From assembly GCF_022267555.1 (NCBI RefSeq), contig NZ_CP073586.1, positions 744,001-808,000 of the forward strand: a stretch of DNA of 64,000 nt, in the 5' to 3' direction. This DNA comes from Proteiniphilum propionicum (GTDB taxonomy: Bacteria > Bacteroidota > Bacteroidia > Bacteroidales > Dysgonomonadaceae). The notes under the pieces were generated by a model. That model was not told where the DNA came from. It searched no databases and saw only the letters and a program-made list of their open reading frames with translations. Positions 53,204 to 64,000 of this stretch are shown piece after piece. Both the position numbers and the translations under genes were made by a program. Position 1 is the stretch's first letter. Each line of letters opens with the position of its first letter.

Positions 53204-53974
53204 TCAGCGGATCTCTTGAATAAGTTTTTTCACTGCTCTTTCAATCGTCTTTTCACTCTTAAGCAGAGAGATGAATTTGCTACCTATTATTGCTCCCGAA
53301 GCTTCCCTGCAGGCAGCATCATATGTCTCTTTATTTGATATTCCAAAACCTATCAGGCGGGGATTCTTTAACTGCATCGCATTTACCCGCCGGAAATATT
53401 CGAGACTATCCTCACTAAAGGTGTCTTTGGCGCCGGTCACCGAAGCATTGGAGACCATGTAGATAAAGCCGGAAGTATGTCTGTCTATCTGCCTGATCCG
53501 TTCTTCCGATGTTTCAGGAGTAATAAGCATTATCATTCGAAGGCCATACTCTTTAGCAATGAATTTATAAGATTCCATATATTCGGCAAAAGGTAAATCG
53601 GGAATGATAAGACCGTCAATTCCGCATCTGGCTGCTTCCCTGCAATAATTATCGAACCCAAACTGAATTACCGGGTTGAGATACCCCATCAGCACCAGAG
53701 GGATCGATACCGACTGCCGCACATCGGTCAGTTGTGAAAAAAGAGTTTTCACGCTCATACCGTTACAGAGCGACTGCGCTCCAGAAGCCTGTATTACGGG
53801 TCCATCGGCCATGGGATCGCTAAACGGCACACCAATCTCAAGCAAATCCGCTCCATGTTTCTCAAGCGCCTGTATTACACCAACTGTATCGTCTAATTGC
53901 GGATATCCTGCGGTAAAATAGACCGATAAGATATTCTTTCCTTTCTCTTTAAATAATTGATCAATCCTGTTCAT
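53204..53974 (-). CDS. trpA: Tryptophan synthase alpha chain
   Basis: Cleaves indole-3-glycerol phosphate to indole, which channels to TrpB; 256 residues. Motifs are LEIGVPFSDPMADGPVIQ (catalytic Glu/Asp), IPLVLMGYLNPV, GIDGLIIPDLPFAE and GFIYMVSNASVTGA. The C-terminal GFGISNKETYDAACREASGAIIGS phosphate-binding loop is also present. It is the last gene of the trp operon, convergent with the HTCS gene. Confidence 0.96.
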   Translation of the reverse strand: MNRIDQLFKEKGKNILSVYFTAGYPQLDDTVGVIQALEKHGADLLEIGVPFSDPMADGPVIQASGAQSLCNGMSVKTLFSQLTDVRQSVSIPLVLMGYLNPVIQFGFDNYCREAARCGIDGLIIPDLPFAEYMESYKFIAKEYGLRMIMLITPETSEERIRQIDRHTSGFIYMVSNASVTGAKDTFSEDSLEYFRRVNAMQLKNPRLIGFGISNKETYDAACREASGAIIGSKFISLLKSEKTIERAVKKLIQEIR

Positions 53975-54037
53975 ATCTGATTATTTCACTAAATTTAAAC
54001 TTATTCTGCCACCTTCGCACCTCACCAAAAACCGGAC

Positions 54038-54649
54038 TTAACGGAAGTGTTCTATTAATATTCTTATTAATTCAATATCTTTAATTGCCGGGGCAATCTC
54101 AAAACGACTGTTCACATCGATTCCTATATACTTGGGATGTGAAAAATATTTCACTGACTCTGCATCTTCCGGTGAGATACCGCCACTTAACAGAAAAGGT
54201 GTTCCGCCACGGTAATCCAAAAGCAGCTCACGGTTGAATTTCCTGCCGGTACCACCATAAAGCGGTGATTTTGTATCGAAGAGAAAATAGTCGCAACAAC
54301 CTTCATAACGTTCCGTAAGCACTATGGGGAAGGGCTCATCTATGCTTATTCCAAATGATTTTATCACCGAAAAGCCTTTATCTCTCAACGCATTGCAATA
54401 TGCAGGAGATTCATTTCCGTGCAATTGCAAAATCTGCAAGCGGTTATTATCAGCCAATGCAAGAAGAGAATCGATATCCTCATCCACAAAAATGCCTACT
54501 CTCTTCACCTTCTCCGGGATATAGGCCAATTTTCCACCTGTGTAGCGGAGCGACTTCCTGTAAAAGATAAATCCCATCCAATCCACCCCCAGCTGTTCTA
54601 CTTTGCGAATGTTCTCTTCATCGCGCATACCACACACCTTGATGATCAT
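54038..54649 (-). CDS. trpF: Phosphoribosylanthranilate isomerase
   Basis: Amadori rearrangement step of tryptophan synthesis; 203 residues, normal. The N-terminus MIIKVCGMRDEENIR holds the catalytic Cys, VGIFVDEDIDSLL and LQLHGNESPAYCN follow, and YFLFDTKS has the catalytic Asp. The phosphate loop is 'PFLLSGGISPEDAESV' and 'GIDVNSRFEIAP'. Separate from trpC, unlike the fused enterobacterial enzyme. Gap to trpA 63 nt. Confidence 0.95.
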   Translation of the reverse strand: MIIKVCGMRDEENIRKVEQLGVDWMGFIFYRKSLRYTGGKLAYIPEKVKRVGIFVDEDIDSLLALADNNRLQILQLHGNESPAYCNALRDKGFSVIKSFGISIDEPFPIVLTERYEGCCDYFLFDTKSPLYGGTGRKFNRELLLDYRGGTPFLLSGGISPEDAESVKYFSHPKYIGIDVNSRFEIAPAIKDIELIRILIEHFR

Positions 54650-54736
54650 TTTTCAATTCTTTTATTCATGCTTCATCGTTATTAACTTATACGGCTCCTC
54701 TTTATTATCCACTAAATTCAAGTTACTCACTATGAA

Positions 54737-55543
54737 TTACCTGGCATTGCCGTTACTACCGGTAATATCATCTATCATCTCTTTCAGGCTCTTTCCTGGA
54801 TTATCGCCCTTCATAAAATGTTCTCCGATAAGGAAACCACGATACCCTGCCTCTCTCAACTCTTTAACGATTGCAGCATCAGAAATGCCGCTTTCTGAAA
54901 TCAGAATAGCCTCTTCCGGAAGTAGCTCTGCCATACTGAACGACTTCTGCAAGTCGGTCACAAAACTTTCCAGATTACGATTATTTATACCGATAAGAGT
55001 GTTAAGCGGAGTGATATAGTCCACCTCTCGTTCATCGTGTAGTTCCAGCAAGACCTCCAGTTGCAGGTCGCAGGCCAGTTGAGTTAGCTCTATGCATTCC
55101 TTCTTTGTAATAGCTGCCGCAATAAGCAGTACAGCGCTAGCACCTGCCAGTTTTGCTTCAAACAGCTGGTACTCATCTATGATGAACTCTTTCCGCATTA
55201 CAGGAATCTTCACTCCACAGGATGCCTTTTCCAGATCTTCCATCGTTCCTCCAAAGTATCTCTCATCAGTGAGAACAGATAGTGCCGAAGCACCTGAGGA
55301 CTCATATTCCTTTGTCACCCTGCTCACATCGGCAGAACGGTACAGCCACCCCTTGCTTGGAGAACGACGCTTAAATTCTGCTATGATTCCTGTTTCTGAA
55401 AATTCCAAAGCTGTTTTCAATGAATAGAAGGGGATAACGGCATCCTCAAGCTGCTTTTCCAGGAAGGGGAAGGGCTGCTTTTCCTTTCTCCGGGCAACTT
55501 CTGTTCTTTTATGTATAATGATCTCTCTTAATATATCTTTCAT
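54737..55543 (-). CDS. trpC: Indole-3-glycerol phosphate synthase
   Basis: Ring-closing decarboxylase, 268 residues. Motifs: IIAEFKRRSPSKGWL (catalytic Glu/Lys and SPSKG), SALSVLTDERYFGGTMEDL, 'VPVMRKEFIIDEYQLFEAKLAGASAVLLI' (here IPVMRKEF), IGINNRNLESF and ISESGISDAAIVKEL. Start codon at 55543 gives the typical MKDILREIIIHKRTEV N-terminus. Gap to trpF 87 nt. Confidence 0.95.
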   Translation of the reverse strand: MKDILREIIIHKRTEVARRKEKQPFPFLEKQLEDAVIPFYSLKTALEFSETGIIAEFKRRSPSKGWLYRSADVSRVTKEYESSGASALSVLTDERYFGGTMEDLEKASCGVKIPVMRKEFIIDEYQLFEAKLAGASAVLLIAAAITKKECIELTQLACDLQLEVLLELHDEREVDYITPLNTLIGINNRNLESFVTDLQKSFSMAELLPEEAILISESGISDAAIVKELREAGYRGFLIGEHFMKGDNPGKSLKEMIDDITGSNGNAR

Positions 55544-55640
55544 CTGTCGTCTGCTTTCTGTTTACTGTTGTCTGATACCGGCTCACCTATGCGGAAAATA
55601 CTCCGGAACGGATTCAATGAACGTTATCCATATTCTCTTT

Positions 55641-56636
55641 TCAACTGTTTAACGTTACAAATTTCTCCAGCACCATCAATGCCTTTTTCCCATACAATGA
55701 ATCTTCGGCCATTTGTAAACACTCCCCGATAGGTTTCTCCTGATCGATTGTCTGAATGCCGAAAGCAGCATTAACCAACACCGCATTCATCTGTGCATCA
55801 GTCGCCCTGCAATTAAGAACATTCCGGAATATTTGAGCAGCCTCTTCAGGGGTGTCCCCTCCATACAACGCCTCCTGTGATACACGGCTAAAACCGAGTT
55901 CTTCAGGGACAAACAGCTGTTCGCCTTTATTTGAGGACACTTTAAACTGACTTGTGAGAGATACTTCATCATAACCGTCAAGACTATGTACGATACAGAA
56001 TTTCTTATCCTCCTCCTGGTAAATATAACTGTATAACCGCAACATAGACAGGTTGTAGACACCCAGCATCTGGTATTTGGGTTGCACAGGGTTTACAAGC
56101 GGCCCCAGCACATTGAAAAAATTGCGGACTCCAAGGCTTTTTCTCACAGGAGCTACAGCCTTTAATGCCGGGCTGAACAGAGGAGCGTGAAGATATGTAA
56201 TATGGCAGTTCTCCAGACTTTTTCGAAGAAGATTAATATCGGTAGTAAACTTCACTCCCAGCTGCTCAATAACGTTACTTGCACCACTAATGGAGGTGGC
56301 CCCGTAATTGCCATGCTTAACTACGTTGTATCCTGCTCCGGCAACCACAAAGCATGCCGATGTAGAAATATTAAATGTATTTTTGCCGTCGCCGCCTGTT
56401 CCCACAATATCCAGCGGACTGTATTCAGACAGATCTGTCGGTAAACGCATCTCAAGCAGTGCATCGCGAAATCCCAGTATCTCATCCACCGATATGCTTC
56501 GCATCAGAAAGGAGGTGATAAGAGATGCAATCTGGGTATCGGGAATATCTCCATTTACAATATTGAAAAGTATCTGTTTGGCTTCTTCTCGAGAAAGATA
56601 ATGAGAGTCAAAAAGCTTATAGAGTATTTCTTTCAT
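55641..56636 (-). CDS. trpD: Anthranilate phosphoribosyltransferase
   Basis: Transfers phosphoribosyl from PRPP to anthranilate; 331 residues from Met at 56636 (MKEILYKLFDSHYLSREEA). Motifs: DIVGTGGDGKNTFNISTS (PRPP loop), VKHGNYGATSISGASNVIEQLG and a C-terminal EVSLTSQFKV-type region. The frame is open upstream to 56777, but that 47-residue extension lacks family similarity. No TrpG domain is attached, and no trpG gene precedes it; the 175 bp between it and trpE is empty. Confidence 0.94.
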   Translation of the reverse strand: MKEILYKLFDSHYLSREEAKQILFNIVNGDIPDTQIASLITSFLMRSISVDEILGFRDALLEMRLPTDLSEYSPLDIVGTGGDGKNTFNISTSACFVVAGAGYNVVKHGNYGATSISGASNVIEQLGVKFTTDINLLRKSLENCHITYLHAPLFSPALKAVAPVRKSLGVRNFFNVLGPLVNPVQPKYQMLGVYNLSMLRLYSYIYQEEDKKFCIVHSLDGYDEVSLTSQFKVSSNKGEQLFVPEELGFSRVSQEALYGGDTPEEAAQIFRNVLNCRATDAQMNAVLVNAAFGIQTIDQEKPIGECLQMAEDSLYGKKALMVLEKFVTLNS

Positions 56637-56811
56637 ACTATATTCAAATATTTTATTATTCAAGTTTCGTATATATAAATTAAAACATATACAGCTAAAT
56701 ATGAGGCCTGTGAAATGTATAGTGGGAACCCATTCGATGAAACAGTCGTAATCTGATAAGCTGTTTGAGCAAAACAAGTGAGCGCTATATTATCATTGTA
56801 CCGCTTGATAT

Positions 56812-58218
56812 TTATGCATTAAAGAGAGTTGCCGCTTTGTCGATGGCCAGCTTCAACGCTCCCAGCTTATTATTTACTTCGTTCAGTTCGTAAGTATCGT
56901 TACTTTGAGCAATTACACCTGCACCGGCCTGATACCACAGATCATTATTCCTGCTCACAAAGGTCCGGATAGTAATAGCCTGGCTCAAATCGCAATTAAG
57001 ACCAATAAACCCAATACATCCACCATATGCACCGCGGTTGTGAGGCTCTATTTCGGAAATGAGCTGCATAGCCCTCACCTTTGGTGCACCGGAAAGAGTG
57101 CCGGCAGGGAAAGTGTCAAAAAAAGCTTTTATGTGATCGGCATTTCCATTGAGAGTTCCGCTCACGCGTGAAACCAGGTGTATCACATGAGAATAAAACT
57201 GAGGCTCTTTGAAGAACTCCACCTTTACATCGTGTGCATTACGACTCAAATCGTCCCGTGCAAGATCTACCAGCATCGCATGCTCCGCATTCTCTTTCGG
57301 ATCGTTCAATAGATAATCCAAAGCTTTCATATCATCCTGGTAGTTACCGCTCCGTTTGGTTGTCCCGGCAATCGGATCAATAGTTATGGTCGATCCTTCT
57401 ATCTTACAGTGCGTCTCGGGTGATGAACCAAAAATGCGGAATCCGCCGAAGTCGAAATAGAAAAGATAAGGTGAAGGGTTTATGGAACGTAATGCACGGT
57501 AAACCTTGAAATCGTCACCCGAAAAGGGTTGCACAAACCTTCTCGAAAGAACAATCTGAAATAGCCTACCACCTACGCAGTGCTCCACTCCTTCACGCAC
57601 ACTATTTTTGAATTGTTCGTCGGTCATGGTGCTGTATTCTTCTCCTTCTATAAAAAAGTTGTAAGTAGCATAGTTACGTTGATTTATAAGTGATTCCAGT
57701 TTGTGTAGAGTGCTAAGCTCTCCTTGCTCTTTCAGTTCTATCAGTGTGATTTCATCTGTAAAATGGTTGAAGATCATCACATATTTATATAGGATATAGA
57801 GCATGTCGGGGGCATCGTTCCGCTCCTCTATGCTCTCTCGCACAGCAATATTATCCGTATATTTCACACAGTTGAATGTAGTGAAGCCGAATAATCCGCA
57901 ATGCCCACTTTCACTACCAGTCACTTCAAAATGTCCAATAAAGCTGTTTAGTGCATCGGAGATGGTAAAATCTTCCGAAAGTTGCCGTTCTTCCTCCCGG
58001 TCATCAGGAAAGAGGAATCTGCAGATACCCCTGTTCACCTCAACTCGTGCAATTGGCTTTAGTGCCAAATAAGAGATACTGTTCTCATTGGCATGGTAGT
58101 CGGAGCTCTCAAGCAATGCCGACTGGGGAAATGCATCCCTTACTTTCAGGTAAGTGCTCACGGGGGTATGCAAGTCACCCATCACCTTTTTGCTGTTAGT
58201 TTCAAATTTGTATATCAT
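56812..58218 (-). CDS. trpE: Anthranilate synthase component I
   Basis: Makes anthranilate from chorismate with ammonia supplied by a TrpG/PabA glutaminase; 468 residues, no fused glutaminase. The N-terminal LLESSDYH holds the Trp-feedback LLES motif. The catalytic chorismate-binding domain shows RLFQIVLSRRFVQPF, PSPYLFYFDFG, SSPETHCKIEG, IDPIAGTTKRSG and TFPAGTLSGAPKVRAMQLI. It also shows AYGGCIGFIG and YQAGAGVIAQS. Starts 21 nt after trpB. The usual trpG neighbour is absent. Confidence 0.95.
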   Translation of the reverse strand: MIYKFETNSKKVMGDLHTPVSTYLKVRDAFPQSALLESSDYHANENSISYLALKPIARVEVNRGICRFLFPDDREEERQLSEDFTISDALNSFIGHFEVTGSESGHCGLFGFTTFNCVKYTDNIAVRESIEERNDAPDMLYILYKYVMIFNHFTDEITLIELKEQGELSTLHKLESLINQRNYATYNFFIEGEEYSTMTDEQFKNSVREGVEHCVGGRLFQIVLSRRFVQPFSGDDFKVYRALRSINPSPYLFYFDFGGFRIFGSSPETHCKIEGSTITIDPIAGTTKRSGNYQDDMKALDYLLNDPKENAEHAMLVDLARDDLSRNAHDVKVEFFKEPQFYSHVIHLVSRVSGTLNGNADHIKAFFDTFPAGTLSGAPKVRAMQLISEIEPHNRGAYGGCIGFIGLNCDLSQAITIRTFVSRNNDLWYQAGAGVIAQSNDTYELNEVNNKLGALKLAIDKAATLFNA

Positions 58219-58239
58219 ACGATAATAGTTTTATTATGT

Positions 58240-59427
58240 TTAGTACTCTTTTTCATACCTGAAATATGTATCGAGATCCTTGTCTCCTCTTCCGGAAAGT
58301 GTCAATACAACAATATCACCGGGAGAGAAATCCACTTTCTCGAGCGCTGCAAGAGCATGAGCAGATTCAAGTGCCGGAATTATACCTTCATGCCGTGTAA
58401 GGTCAAATGCAGCTCTTAGCGCTTCGTTATCGTTGATAGCGTACACTTTTGCTCGCCCTGTAGCTGCAAGATTGGCATGTACCGGACCTATGCCCGGGTA
58501 ATCGAGTCCGGCAGAGATGGAATAGGGCTCAGTGATCTGCCCGTCTTCGGTCTGCATCAGCAGTGTTCTGCAGCCGTGCAACACACCCGGTTTACCCAGA
58601 TGGATTGTAGCAGCCGATTCGCCGCTGTCTATTCCTTTACCTCCAGCTTCAGCCAACACTATGCGAACCTTTTCATTATCCAGGTACTCATAAATGGTAC
58701 CAGCAGCATTACTCCCGCCGCCCACACAGGCAAAGAGGTAATCAGGATAATCACGCCCCTCTTTTTCTGCAAGCTGAACCCTGATCTCCTTACTGATGAC
58801 CGATTGCAAACGTGCTACAAGGTCGGGATAGGGATGGGGGCCGATGGTCGACCCTATAATGTAGTGGGTGTCGGCGGGATGGCTGCACCAGTCGCGTATT
58901 GCCTCGTTGGTGGCGTCTTTCAGTGTCATATTACCGGAAGTGACCGGAACAACCTTTGCACCCAACATCTCCATCTTTCTCACATTCACCTGCTGACGTT
59001 CTACATCGGTTTTTCCCATGTAAACCGTACACGGCATCTGCATCAGTGCACAAACAGTAGCCGTTGCTACGCCGTGTTGTCCTGCTCCTGTCTCTGCAAT
59101 AATACGTGTTTTACCCATTTCACGGGCTATCAGGATCTGTCCGGTGGTGTTGTTTATTTTATGTGCACCCGTATGGTTTAGGTCTTCCCGTTTCAGATAT
59201 ATCTTCGCCCCGAAACGCTCCGACAGACGGTTTGAGTAATAAAGCGGCGAAGGCCGCCCCACATAATCGTGCAGAAGCCGGTTAAACTCTTTCTGAAAGC
59301 TCTTACTCTCGATAATTGCCAGATAAGCCTCCTTGAGGTCTGTTACACACTGATGCAGTATTTCAGGAATGTATGCTCCTCCAAACTCCCCATAATATCC
59401 CTTCCCATCAATTGAAAAATGTTGCAT
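58240..59427 (-). CDS. trpB: Tryptophan synthase beta chain
   Basis: PLP enzyme joining indole and serine; 395 residues. It shows GYYGEFGGAYIPEIL, 'RPSPLYYSNRLSERFGAKIYLKREDLNHTGAHKIN' with the PLP Lys in HTGAHKIN, ETGAGQHGVATAT, 'CVGGGSNAAGT' phosphate loop, and LTLSGRGDKD at the C-terminus. First structural gene of trpB-E-D-C-F-A, about 290 nt after the leader promoter. Confidence 0.97.
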   Translation of the reverse strand: MQHFSIDGKGYYGEFGGAYIPEILHQCVTDLKEAYLAIIESKSFQKEFNRLLHDYVGRPSPLYYSNRLSERFGAKIYLKREDLNHTGAHKINNTTGQILIAREMGKTRIIAETGAGQHGVATATVCALMQMPCTVYMGKTDVERQQVNVRKMEMLGAKVVPVTSGNMTLKDATNEAIRDWCSHPADTHYIIGSTIGPHPYPDLVARLQSVISKEIRVQLAEKEGRDYPDYLFACVGGGSNAAGTIYEYLDNEKVRIVLAEAGGKGIDSGESAATIHLGKPGVLHGCRTLLMQTEDGQITEPYSISAGLDYPGIGPVHANLAATGRAKVYAINDNEALRAAFDLTRHEGIIPALESAHALAALEKVDFSPGDIVVLTLSGRGDKDLDTYFRYEKEY

Positions 59428-59583
59428 ATGTTTATTTATTTAATTGTCTTCTGTAGCGGCCCACGAAAGAAGTATCGAATGTTGACAATTGTTTGATCAA
59501 CCTATCTCCTCTATTTCGTCCAATCCGTTTGTTGTCTGCCTATTGTCAATATCCTGCCTGCAGTTTGTATATGCTAAAAACAC

Positions 59584-59617
59584 AAAGAGCCTGTCGCAGG
59601 ATTGCGACAGGCTCTTT
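59584..59617 (-). terminator. trp leader terminator (attenuator)
   Basis: A perfect 15-bp stem, AAAGAGCCTGTCGCA/TGCGACAGGCTCTTT, closed by a 4-nt loop. On the minus strand it is followed by GTGTTTTTAG. It lies 157 nt upstream of trpB and 39 nt after the leader-peptide stop codon. On the plus strand it is also followed by TATATTTTTT. Confidence 0.85.
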
Positions 59618-59656
59618 ATATTTTTTCGATTTACTATAAACGCACGATGCTTCTCC

Positions 59657-59716
59657 TTACGACATTTTGAGTAGTAAGTAGCGCCACCAATATCCGTTTA
59701 TAAGTAGATTCGTCAT
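59657..59716 (-). CDS. trpL: trp leader peptide with tandem Trp codons
   Basis: A 19-codon frame reading MTNLLINGYWWRYLLLKMS, with TGG TGG at codons 10-11, flanked by Tyr codons. It lies between a strong promoter match and the attenuator-like terminator upstream of trpB. Tandem Trp codons in a short leader are the classic sensor of charged tRNA-Trp. The ATG is preceded by an A-rich stretch without Shine-Dalgarno, usual for this phylum. A classical antiterminator pairing with the 5' arm of the terminator was not found. Confidence 0.8.
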   Translation of the reverse strand: MTNLLINGYWWRYLLLKMS

Positions 59717-59735
59717 TTCGCTATTATTTTGGTTG

Positions 59736-59766
59736 CAAATATATACGATCGAAAAATAACACGCAA
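59736..59766 (-). promoter_or_regulatory. Bacteroidales-type promoter for the trp operon
   Basis: On the minus strand: TTG (59764-59766), exactly 20 nt, then TATATTTG (59736-59743), a full -7 match. The leader peptide ATG is 20 nt downstream. Confidence 0.75.
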
Positions 59767-59802: not shown

Positions 59803-60012
59803 TTAAATTACCTCTGCATCAAAACCGGTTCGTTTCACGGTTTTGATGATATCCTCCGGAACTAGATCTTCCGTTTCCACAACCAATATTTTATCTGGAT
59901 TGTCAAGCTCCATATTCCATGAATGTATTCCTTCCTTTCTATTCAAAAAAGGGGTAACCTTAGCTAGGCAGTTTGAGCAATTTATATTTGTTTTGAATCT
60001 GATAGTTCTCAT
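59803..60012 (-). CDS. Heavy-metal-associated (HMA) domain mini-protein
   Basis: A 69-residue ferredoxin-like HMA domain. The metal site is NINCSNCLAKV (Cys12, Cys15) rather than the GMTCxxC of common copper chaperones. The family fold is otherwise complete, ending VKRTGFDAEVI. Probably a cytoplasmic Cu(I) or other soft-metal chaperone. A copper-type P-ATPase is 2 kb away on the same strand but not adjacent. -7 box TACATTTG at 60080-60087. It is upstream of, and same strand as, the trp promoter. Confidence 0.85.
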   Translation of the reverse strand: MRTIRFKTNINCSNCLAKVTPFLNRKEGIHSWNMELDNPDKILVVETEDLVPEDIIKTVKRTGFDAEVI

Positions 60013-62162: not shown

Positions 62163-64000
62163 TCATATTTTTTTGTTCTTCAGACGCAGGCTGTTTGTCA
62201 CCACACTTACAGAACTCAATGCCATTGCAGCACCAGCAATCATGGGGTTTAGCATAAAGCCTGTGAGAGGATACAATACCCCTGCCGCTATGGGGATGCC
62301 AATAATATTATAAATAAACGCCCAAAAAAGGTTCTGACGGATGGTCTTGACTGTTGCCCGGGAGAGTTGGATTGCCTTAGGTATCTTATTCAGATCAGAA
62401 GAAATAATGGTCATTTTCGCCACATCCATTGCGATATCGCTCCCCGCTCCCATGGCGATGCTTACATCGGCCTGAGCCAGCGCACCACTATCGTTTATTC
62501 CATCTCCCACCATCGCAACTTTTTTTCCCTTTTGCTGGAGTTCCTTCACCATTTCGGCCTTTTCTTCGGGTAAGACACTCCCTTTATAGTGAGTGATGCC
62601 CAACTCTTTTGCCAATGCAGCTGCTACTTTCTCATTATCTCCGGTATATATAGCCACGTCAATTCCCATATCGCGAAGTTTATCTATCGCCTCTCTGGAA
62701 GTAGGTTTCATTTTATCGGTAATACCTACCACACCATATGCCTTCTTCTCATCGGCAAACAGGGAGACAGTATGCGCAACATTCAGTTCTTCGTCGATTT
62801 TGCGTTGCAGTTCAGATGAGATCAATATGTTCTTCTCCTTTATAAACTGCTCATTCCCCACATAATACGTCAACCCATTATATCTCCCCTCTATTCCTCT
62901 TCCGCTTACCTGTTGCACAGTCACATCGCCAAGTAATGTACAGTTCTCTTTCAGTGCTCCCGTGATAGCATCCGCCAGGGGATGCTCCGACCTGTATTCA
63001 ATACTGTAAAAGATGTTATGATAAAACGTAAGAATACCAGGCTCCCACATAACAGAGCTAACCTGCGGCCTCCCCTCGGTAATGGTACCGGTCTTATCGA
63101 GCACCACAACATCAATATCCTTTGTCATCTCCAGGCTCTCGGCATCCTTGATCAGAATACCCTCTTCCGCTCCTTTACCTATACCAACCATAATGGCTGT
63201 AGGTGTGGCCAGTCCCAGAGCACAGGGACAGGCAATCACCAGCACCGTCACCATCGCCATCAGTCCGAAAACAAAGCCGTTGCCACCACCGGAAATAACC
63301 CAAACAACAAAGCTCAGCAAAGCAATAATGATCACTACCGGAACAAATACACCTGCAATTCTGTCCACCAATCCCTGTACGGGTGCCTTACTTCCCTGTG
63401 CTTCATCCACGGTTTTTATTATATGTGCCAGCAACGTCTCCTTACCCACCTTCCGGGCCTTGAAGCGGAAGCTTCCTTTCTGGTTGATGGTACCGGCATA
63501 AACCTTTTCTCCCGGGAGTTTTTCAACATGAATCGGTTCACCTGATATCATGCTTTCATCTACAAAAGAACTTCCTTCCGTCACCTCGCCATCCACAGCA
63601 ATTTTGTCTCCCGGCTTCACGAGAACTATATCACCTACAAGTACCTCTTCAATGGGAATCTCTTCCGGTTTCCCGTCCCTGAAAACAATCACAGTGGAGG
63701 GCTGCAGCCCCATCAGCTTCCTGATAGCCTCAGAGGTGTTTCCCCTGGCACGGGCTTCTAGCAATTTCCCAAGCAGGATAAAGGCGATAATCACACCCGC
63801 CGCCTCAAAATAAACATGTGCTTCCAAACCGCGGTTTTCCCAAAACCGAGGGTAGAGCATATTAAAAAGGCTGAACAGATAGGCGATCCCGGTACTTAGT
63901 GCAACCAGCGTATCCATGTTGGCGGTATGGTGTTTGGCTTGCTTCCAGGCACCAACAAAAAAACGTCGTCCGAATATAAACAGGGCAGGGGTTGCCAGCA
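62163..64000 (-). CDS. copA: Copper-type P1B ATPase, 5'-truncated by window edge
   Basis: Heavy-metal-exporting P-type ATPase. The frame is open through the window end (FGRRFFVGAWKQAKHHTANMDTLVAL), so ATG 63917 is internal. Visible elements are the A-domain ISGEP, membrane metal site VIACPCALGLATPT (Cys-Pro-Cys), phosphorylation Asp in LDKTGTITEG, P-domain MVGDGINDSGALAQ and C-terminal MALSSVSVVTNSLRLK. The CPC and SSVxVxxN sites fit Cu(I)/Ag(I) specificity. Any N-terminal HMA domains lie outside the window. Confidence 0.93.
   Translation of the reverse strand, partial: LATPALFIFGRRFFVGAWKQAKHHTANMDTLVALSTGIAYLFSLFNMLYPRFWENRGLEAHVYFEAAGVIIAFILLGKLLEARARGNTSEAIRKLMGLQPSTVIVFRDGKPEEIPIEEVLVGDIVLVKPGDKIAVDGEVTEGSSFVDESMISGEPIHVEKLPGEKVYAGTINQKGSFRFKARKVGKETLLAHIIKTVDEAQGSKAPVQGLVDRIAGVFVPVVIIIALLSFVVWVISGGGNGFVFGLMAMVTVLVIACPCALGLATPTAIMVGIGKGAEEGILIKDAESLEMTKDIDVVVLDKTGTITEGRPQVSSVMWEPGILTFYHNIFYSIEYRSEHPLADAITGALKENCTLLGDVTVQQVSGRGIEGRYNGLTYYVGNEQFIKEKNILISSELQRKIDEELNVAHTVSLFADEKKAYGVVGITDKMKPTSREAIDKLRDMGIDVAIYTGDNEKVAAALAKELGITHYKGSVLPEEKAEMVKELQQKGKKVAMVGDGINDSGALAQADVSIAMGAGSDIAMDVAKMTIISSDLNKIPKAIQLSRATVKTIRQNLFWAFIYNIIGIPIAAGVLYPLTGFMLNPMIAGAAMALSSVSVVTNSLRLKNKKI

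Follow-up and report, generated by a model that had tools for sequence, protein, structure and literature searches.

A candidate Bacteroid-trp attenuator in Proteiniphilum propionicum whose antiterminator strand is predicted to pair with the loop and 3' arm of the terminator

The leader of the trp operon of Proteiniphilum propionicum raises the question of which RNA strand could keep its terminator from forming. The window analyzed here (64,000 nucleotides of contig NZ_CP073586.1, positions 744,001 to 808,000; the 3.9-Mb genome consists of one contig) carries this operon on its minus strand, and the features discussed below are collected in Table 1. A preliminary description had placed a promoter, a 19-codon leader with Trp10-Trp11 and a perfect 15-bp terminator ahead of trpB, and these elements were found to be right to the base. 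The leader thus has what defines a ribosome-mediated attenuator, a leader peptide with regulatory codons followed by an intrinsic terminator, and trpB starts ~150 bases beyond that terminator. Positions 59428-59730 folded 5.8 sd below dinucleotide shuffles (0/100 shuffles as good). The terminator palindrome, with exact arms, occurred at one place in the genome, which ruled out a generic repeat terminator.

Table 1. Features of the trp leader and operon, in window coordinates.
Feature	Position	Strand	Detail and basis
Promoter	59736..59766	minus	TTG 59766-59764, 20-nt spacer, TATATTTG 59743-59736; Bacteroidota consensus
Leader peptide MTNLLINGYWWRYLLLKMS*, 19 codons	59657..59716	minus	ATG 59716, TAA 59659-59657; sequence read
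Tandem Trp codons TGGTGG, residues 10-11	59689-59684	minus	Sequence read
Region 1, codons preceding the Trp pair; partner, region 2	59695..59703	minus	Fold, Rfam consensus structure, swap test
Segment A (CUUAC), partner of B if the ribosome is absent	59674..59678	minus	Folding; within the Rfam structure
Segment B (UGUCGUAAGGA), across the leader stop codon	59654..59664	minus	Covariation with loop and 3' arm; folding
Region 2 (CGUUUAUAG)	59634..59642	minus	Partner of region 1; weak alternative partner, A/U-rich base of the 5' arm
Segment D, terminator 5' arm AAAGAGCCUGUCGCA	59603..59617	minus	Sequence and fold
Terminator hairpin, perfect 15 bp	59617-59603 / ATCC / 59598-59584	minus	Sequence and fold
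Segment C, loop UCC and upper 3' arm UGCGACA; target common to B and D (covaries with B)	59592..59601	minus	
Terminator 3' arm UGCGACAGGCUCUUU	59584..59598	minus	Sequence and fold
GUGUUUUU, directly after the 3' arm	59583-59576	minus	Sequence read
trpB, first gene of the operon	58240-59427	minus	TIGR00263, 576 bits
trp operon, trpB-E-D-C-F-A	53204-59427	minus	TIGR00263, TIGR00564, TIGR01245, NF001377, NF002298, TIGR00262

Conservation was examined at 29 trp loci of the genus. A TGGTGG leader frame within N-G/R-Y-W-W-R was found upstream of trpB at 28 of them (NGYWWR, with NRYWWR in L010); at the remaining locus, L026, the second Trp codon is altered (TGG CGG). The leaders listed from the wider order and class carry two or three tandem Trp codons, as expected since they were found by the Rfam model. 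The promoter, described earlier as TTG-N20-TAnnTTTG, is present in that form in the window; among 27 genus leaders examined the exact TAnnTTTG with TTG 18-21 upstream was seen in only 12, and 14 others retain TTTGC only (in L014 the region is lost at the contig end). Near-invariant blocks of the genus were AACGGATATTGGTGGCG, CTTAC, GTCGTAAGGA at the stop codon, and the terminator core including the loop AATCC. Within the terminator, GCCTGTCG was invariant in 29 aligned genus leaders and the 3' arm drifted through changes that leave G-U pairs. A conserved loop, with one arm more conserved than the other, calls for a second pairing partner.

The bases of segment B were kept in five leaders in which the reading frame through B is shifted and the peptide end therefore differs (L023, L024, L034, L040 and L195), so that B is conserved as RNA and not as peptide. 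Pairing of regions 1 and 2 was better than every swap (0/5000 as good; 108 leaders). Among the 105 leaders with a B duplex below -7 kcal/mol, the helix begins 26 nt past the first Trp codon in 75 and 23-30 nt past it in 104. A ribosome covers ~13 nt ahead of its A site, and at this position B would therefore be free with the ribosome on the Trp codons and covered with the ribosome at the stop. Conservation of the Trp codons, the stop block, the terminator and this geometry strongly supports the ribosome-mediated attenuation proposed for the locus.

The leader was compared with known RNA families. In the default Rfam scan the sole match in the whole window was a tRNA, with no T-box or other riboswitch at gathering score; in the sensitive scan the best match of the leader was Bacteroid-trp (RF01692; 44.0 bits, E 5.1e-4 in a 471-base search), under the gathering cut-off of 49 bits. 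Other matches in the region (ar14, Thr_leader and others) were far under their cut-offs and were set aside. RF01692 model positions 1-131 aligned full length to the window with the 1:2 and A:B structure conserved, and the short frame that precedes the trp genes, with its tandem Trp codons, is present. At E 0.1, 30 of 39 genus genomes matched and 10 of the 39 reached the cut-off, which overlooks 20 of the 30; because those 10 reach it, the window leader is taken as an RF01692 homologue lying just below the cut-off. In the family, 72/101 genomes matched at E 0.01, and at E 0.001 matches were found in 26/295 genomes of an order sample and 26/395 of a class sample (six genomes common to both). The model stops partway along the terminator 5' arm (GGCUUGUC), which leaves the 3' arm and the pairing of B with C outside it.

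The class itself is already catalogued (RF01692, 2010). In the parts of the sources available to us, the motif is tabled as a probable Bacteroidetes cis-regulator (Weinberg et al., 2010; PMC2864571) and is called similar to the E. coli leader in a study of Flavobacterium psychrophilum (PMC6414381); a transcriptome study reports clues of leader-peptide attenuation ahead of amino-acid operons (PMC9723704). No description of the B:C pairing or of a switch mechanism was found in the literature searched, though the Weinberg supplement may say more; the leader class is known and its antiterminator design appears to be undescribed there.

The preliminary description had matched a 7-nt block at the stop codon (UGUCGUA) to the terminator 3' arm. 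The partner is indeed the 3' arm, and the pairing is longer than that and takes in the loop (UCC with GGA): UGUCGUAAGGA pairs with UCCUGCGACA, the terminator loop plus the upper 3' arm, with one bulge. For covariation, 115 leaders were collected (29 from the genus, 41 from the family, 27 from the order and 18 from the class), and a terminator was parsed in 114. L043 was dropped because its contig stops ahead of the terminator, L065 because the parser overlooked its imperfect stem (on visual inspection the stop block, GUCGUGAG, matches CUUACGAC), and L002 and L031 as distant TrpB paralogues. Family matches outside the genus were used in 42 of 45 cases (21 + 20 loci, plus L045 counted under order), leaving out G729, G763 and G771.

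Over the 114 leaders (104 distinct B/C sets), B:C duplexes had a mean energy of -11.10 kcal/mol for a leader's own strands vs -8.64 kcal/mol for species-swapped ones, and 0/20,000 permutations were as good in this test, which ignores kinship. Pairing of B with the 5' arm and loop gave no signal in the same leaders (own -5.01 vs swapped -5.14 kcal/mol; 16,422/20,000 permutations). Restricted to the genus, where B and C hardly vary and the test has no power, the B:C count was 2075/5000. Because kinship can mimic covariation, draws of one leader per family were made (19 families; 200 draws x 1000 permutations). In the median draw no permutation was as good, whether the whole of C, the loop only or the 3' arm only was swapped; pairing of B with the 5' arm again gave no signal across these families (median p 0.166). 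The stop-codon block thus covaries across 19 families with the strand proposed for it in place of a classical antiterminator, and not with the 5' arm. Judged from sequence comparison, this pairing is the best-supported mechanistic feature of the leader, and the relatives as aligned bore out the Trp codons (28/29 genus loci), the kept stem and the B:C covariation together.

Individual base pairs were inspected in a hand-chosen alignment of 50 rows (4/29 genus, 17/41 family, 22/26 order and 7/18 class leaders). It omits near-duplicates and the poor fits L046, L055, L070, L071, L072, L073, L075, L076 and L078, so its percentages flatter the B:C model; all 114 leaders were retained in the duplex-energy, one-per-family, nascent-folding and arm-preference tests. 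In the alignment, 91.2% of B:C cells were paired with a covariation score of 0.329 (0/500 shuffles for both), two-sided changes were present in 6 of 8 B:C pairs (5/500 shuffles), and versions of B:C slid along the alignment were paired at most 48%. The terminator itself had 99.1% paired cells and was the only structure returned by RNAalifold on these rows. Compensated pairs include GUCGUGAG with CUCACGAC, UUGUGAG with CUCACAA (L052), ACCGUGAG with CUUACGGU (L057) and UCGUGAA with UUCGCGA (L056). In a further, mostly new set from named records (among them Bacteroides fragilis, B. finegoldii, Phocaeicola plebeius and Alloprevotella; L189 and L190 repeat earlier contigs), B:C exceeded B:D in 18 of 20 leaders (1/10,000 permutations; 1765/10,000 for the 5' arm), and 60 of its 80 trpB loci had yielded no leader under the strict parser.

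The same method was applied to his and phe leaders of the genus (26/30 his and 29/30 phe loci used; L129-L131 and L139 of the his set and L161 of the phe set were unparsed). A his leader (e.g. MKANLFHHHHFHTCNQAS) carries a run of His codons before hisG at L132 (G000:C1, ~3.438 Mb) and 25 other loci, with ACCCGUCUGA...UCAGGCGGGU as the terminator in most. A phe leader (e.g. MNNSVFAFSFWFYFYFSR, with a GTG start) and its terminator lie ahead of the prephenate dehydratase gene at L168 (G000:C1, ~1.12 Mb) and 28 other loci; the FYFYF frame was present in 29/29, and a strand just past the stop codon (e.g. GGCAGGAUUUU) binds the 5' arm. The stop-proximal strand paired better with the 5' arm in 25/26 his and 29/29 phe leaders, and in 0/29 genus and 0/41 family trp leaders. 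The method thus recovers the classical design where it occurs, and trp differs. All three kinds of leader have regulatory codons and, at the stop or just past it, a strand in competition with the terminator; in his and phe that strand mimics the 3' arm and binds the 5' arm, whereas in trp it mimics the 5' arm.

The trp set has exceptions. With 10-nt arms, B paired better with the 5' arm in 13/114 trp leaders (6/26 order, 7/18 class). The clearest are L070 and those of family f159, which look classical; L046 is a further exception to the B:C design. The f159 leaders (L072, L073, L075 and L076) precede a trpD-like gene, and a strand at or after their stop (e.g. GGCAGCC, GGCAAUUC) binds the 5' arm. 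Family f159 may represent a classical design within the same Rfam class, and the two designs may have been interchanged.

Attenuators of the E. coli trpL type share with the window leader a leader peptide with regulatory codons, an anti-antiterminator, an intrinsic terminator and the ribosome as sensor. In those systems the antiterminator binds the terminator 5' arm, whereas in the window it would bind the loop and 3' arm; apart from a weak, lineage-limited helix of region 2, the antiterminator:5'-arm pairing of the four-segment scheme was not found in the window or genus trp leaders. For the three-hairpin attenuator of ilvBNC in Corynebacterium glutamicum, a fast, low-barrier switch has been proposed; as far as the consulted part of that paper goes, its terminator and antiterminator likewise compete over a common segment, which there is a GCC trinucleotide on the terminator 5' side and not loop plus 3' arm (PMC11857589).

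Nascent RNA was folded with the part masked by an assumed ribosome footprint removed, and a leader was scored as passing when B:C merely exceeded D:C, even if both were small. By this measure, with a stalled ribosome and 6 nt of the 3' arm exposed, B:C was ahead in 108/114 leaders (failures L046, L052, L055, L071, L075 and L109); it was ahead in 112/114 at 5 nt and only 99/114 at 7 nt. Free of ribosomes and at 6 nt, D:C exceeded B:C in 111/114 (failures L057, L060 and L089), with 106 at 5 nt and 113 at 7 nt. With the ribosome at the stop the terminator formed in 114/114, a count that is not independent since B is cut away by construction. Shuffled B yielded B:C in 14-20% of trials.

The completed terminator was more stable than B:C. 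In stepwise folding of seven leaders the hairpin was ahead by 8 nt of exposed 3' arm in L059, by 10 nt in five leaders including the window and by 12 nt in L090; in the window B:C persisted at 8 nt and was gone at 10 nt. Because the finished terminator outcompetes B:C, such a switch must be kinetic and its margin narrow. RNA polymerase shields ~14 nt, and with 8 nt exposed it would have reached about base 22 counted from the start of the 3' arm, where the U-tract ends or nearly ends (base 23). In this model the less stable structure may win while it matters.

Taken together, these results argue that the locus is probably a ribosome-mediated Bacteroid-trp attenuator in which B, a decoy of the terminator 5' arm, serves as the proposed antiterminator strand by capturing the terminator loop and upper 3' arm. 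The elements, their conservation, their covariation and their predicted folding states were established here; from them we infer ribosome positions, timing, the sensing of tRNA-Trp and actual termination. With tryptophan plentiful, the ribosome would reach the stop codon and cover B, the two arms would pair and transcription would stop. With tryptophan short, a ribosome stalled at the tandem Trp codons would cover region 1 and A and leave B exposed; B would catch the emerging loop and the first bases of the 3' arm before the hairpin nucleates, polymerase would clear the U-tract with B:C formed, and trpBEDCFA would be transcribed. Without translation, A:B and 1:2 would form, hiding B, and transcription would stop. 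Visual inspection also suggested that the Trp-codon region (GGAUAUUGGUGGCG) could bind the 5' arm and loop; this was rejected as having the wrong sign, because the ribosome would release that region only when tryptophan is plentiful.

Among other readings, a composite antiterminator deserves most attention and is a possible but not a likely arrangement: a helix between region 2 and the 5' arm (2:3) would first hold the base of that arm, B:C would close around it, and both would be needed. The two helices are nested, and the minimum-energy structures of the stalled state combined B:C with some inner helix in 6 of the 7 leaders printed, the window included; the cross-family backing for 2:3 is weak, however. 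The same helix is central to a classical four-segment attenuator, in which region 2 binds the 5' arm on stalling and B:C is a by-product. Its short A/U helix (UUUAUA:UAUAAA in the window) beat swaps within the genus (17/5000) and family (2/5000), 5'-arm pairing is used by some relatives (L070, L072, L073 and L075; the L076 block is the same as that of L073), and classical 5'-arm pairing occurs in the his and phe leaders of the genus. Across families, however, the 2:3 signal was lost (one-per-family median p 0.25; order 692/5000; class 2821/5000), in the window the helix is limited to the A/U base of the stem, and B:5'-arm pairing does not covary in the 114 leaders or the 19 families. As tested, the classical antiterminator was weak and lineage-limited, and we regard it as improbable.

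It is more doubtful still that conservation of the stop block serves nothing but the A:B and 1:2 hairpins or translation (release, reinitiation), and that the block matches the terminator by an accident of common descent. The A:B pairing does belong to the Rfam structure, but loop bases follow B across families, both in the loop-only swap and in alignment columns 56/162, where 162 mostly falls in the loop (GC 30, AU 17, GU 2, other 1). That the terminated leader acts in trans as a small RNA, with the exposed C/U-rich loop as seed and B as lid, is very improbable, since the loop changes along with B and is not fixed, although a trans-acting trp leader peptide reported in Sinorhizobium, in the part of that study consulted, offers a precedent (PMC7298713).

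Capture of the loop and 3' arm by B thus remains the preferred reading for the window. Somewhat less firmly, we think it likely that throughout Bacteroidales and in some of the wider class (f173, a family that looks like Flavobacteriaceae) the trp leader represents a second class of attenuator switch, in which a decoy strand acts as a kinetic antiterminator by seizing the loop and 3' arm and blocking nucleation, the his and phe leaders of the window's genus having the standard 5'-arm design. Textbook attenuation hides the terminator strand that is made first, and the present design would catch the one made last. If so, termination would be decided by timing alone, with the less stable structure winning at the decisive moment. 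The proposal supplies a catalogued RNA, from a phylum that is prominent in the gut, with a mechanism open to testing, for which nature provides compensatory changes and the his and phe leaders are built-in controls.

In the operon itself, TrpE and TrpF scored under their curated cut-offs among the profile matches in the window, and the nearest named relative of TrpB was that of Proteiniphilum acetatigenes (85% identical, in a search that may omit very near records). TrpG was above cut-off in 28/39 genus genomes, for example just past trpE in G002 and G024. In the complete genome of the window trpG was missing, the one weak match (48.5 bits) lying elsewhere in a 513-aa frame that is perhaps GMP synthase. 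About 175 bases between trpE and the likely start of trpD (window 56637-56811) hold no recognized gene. Upstream of the operon, a 69-codon frame with NCSNC (59803-60012, minus strand) resembles a heavy-metal-binding domain. It stops 36 bases ahead of the trp promoter and has the same orientation; visual inspection showed no hairpin in the gap, and read-through from the frame into trp is possible. A copper-type P-ATPase is encoded at 62163-63917, also on the minus strand.
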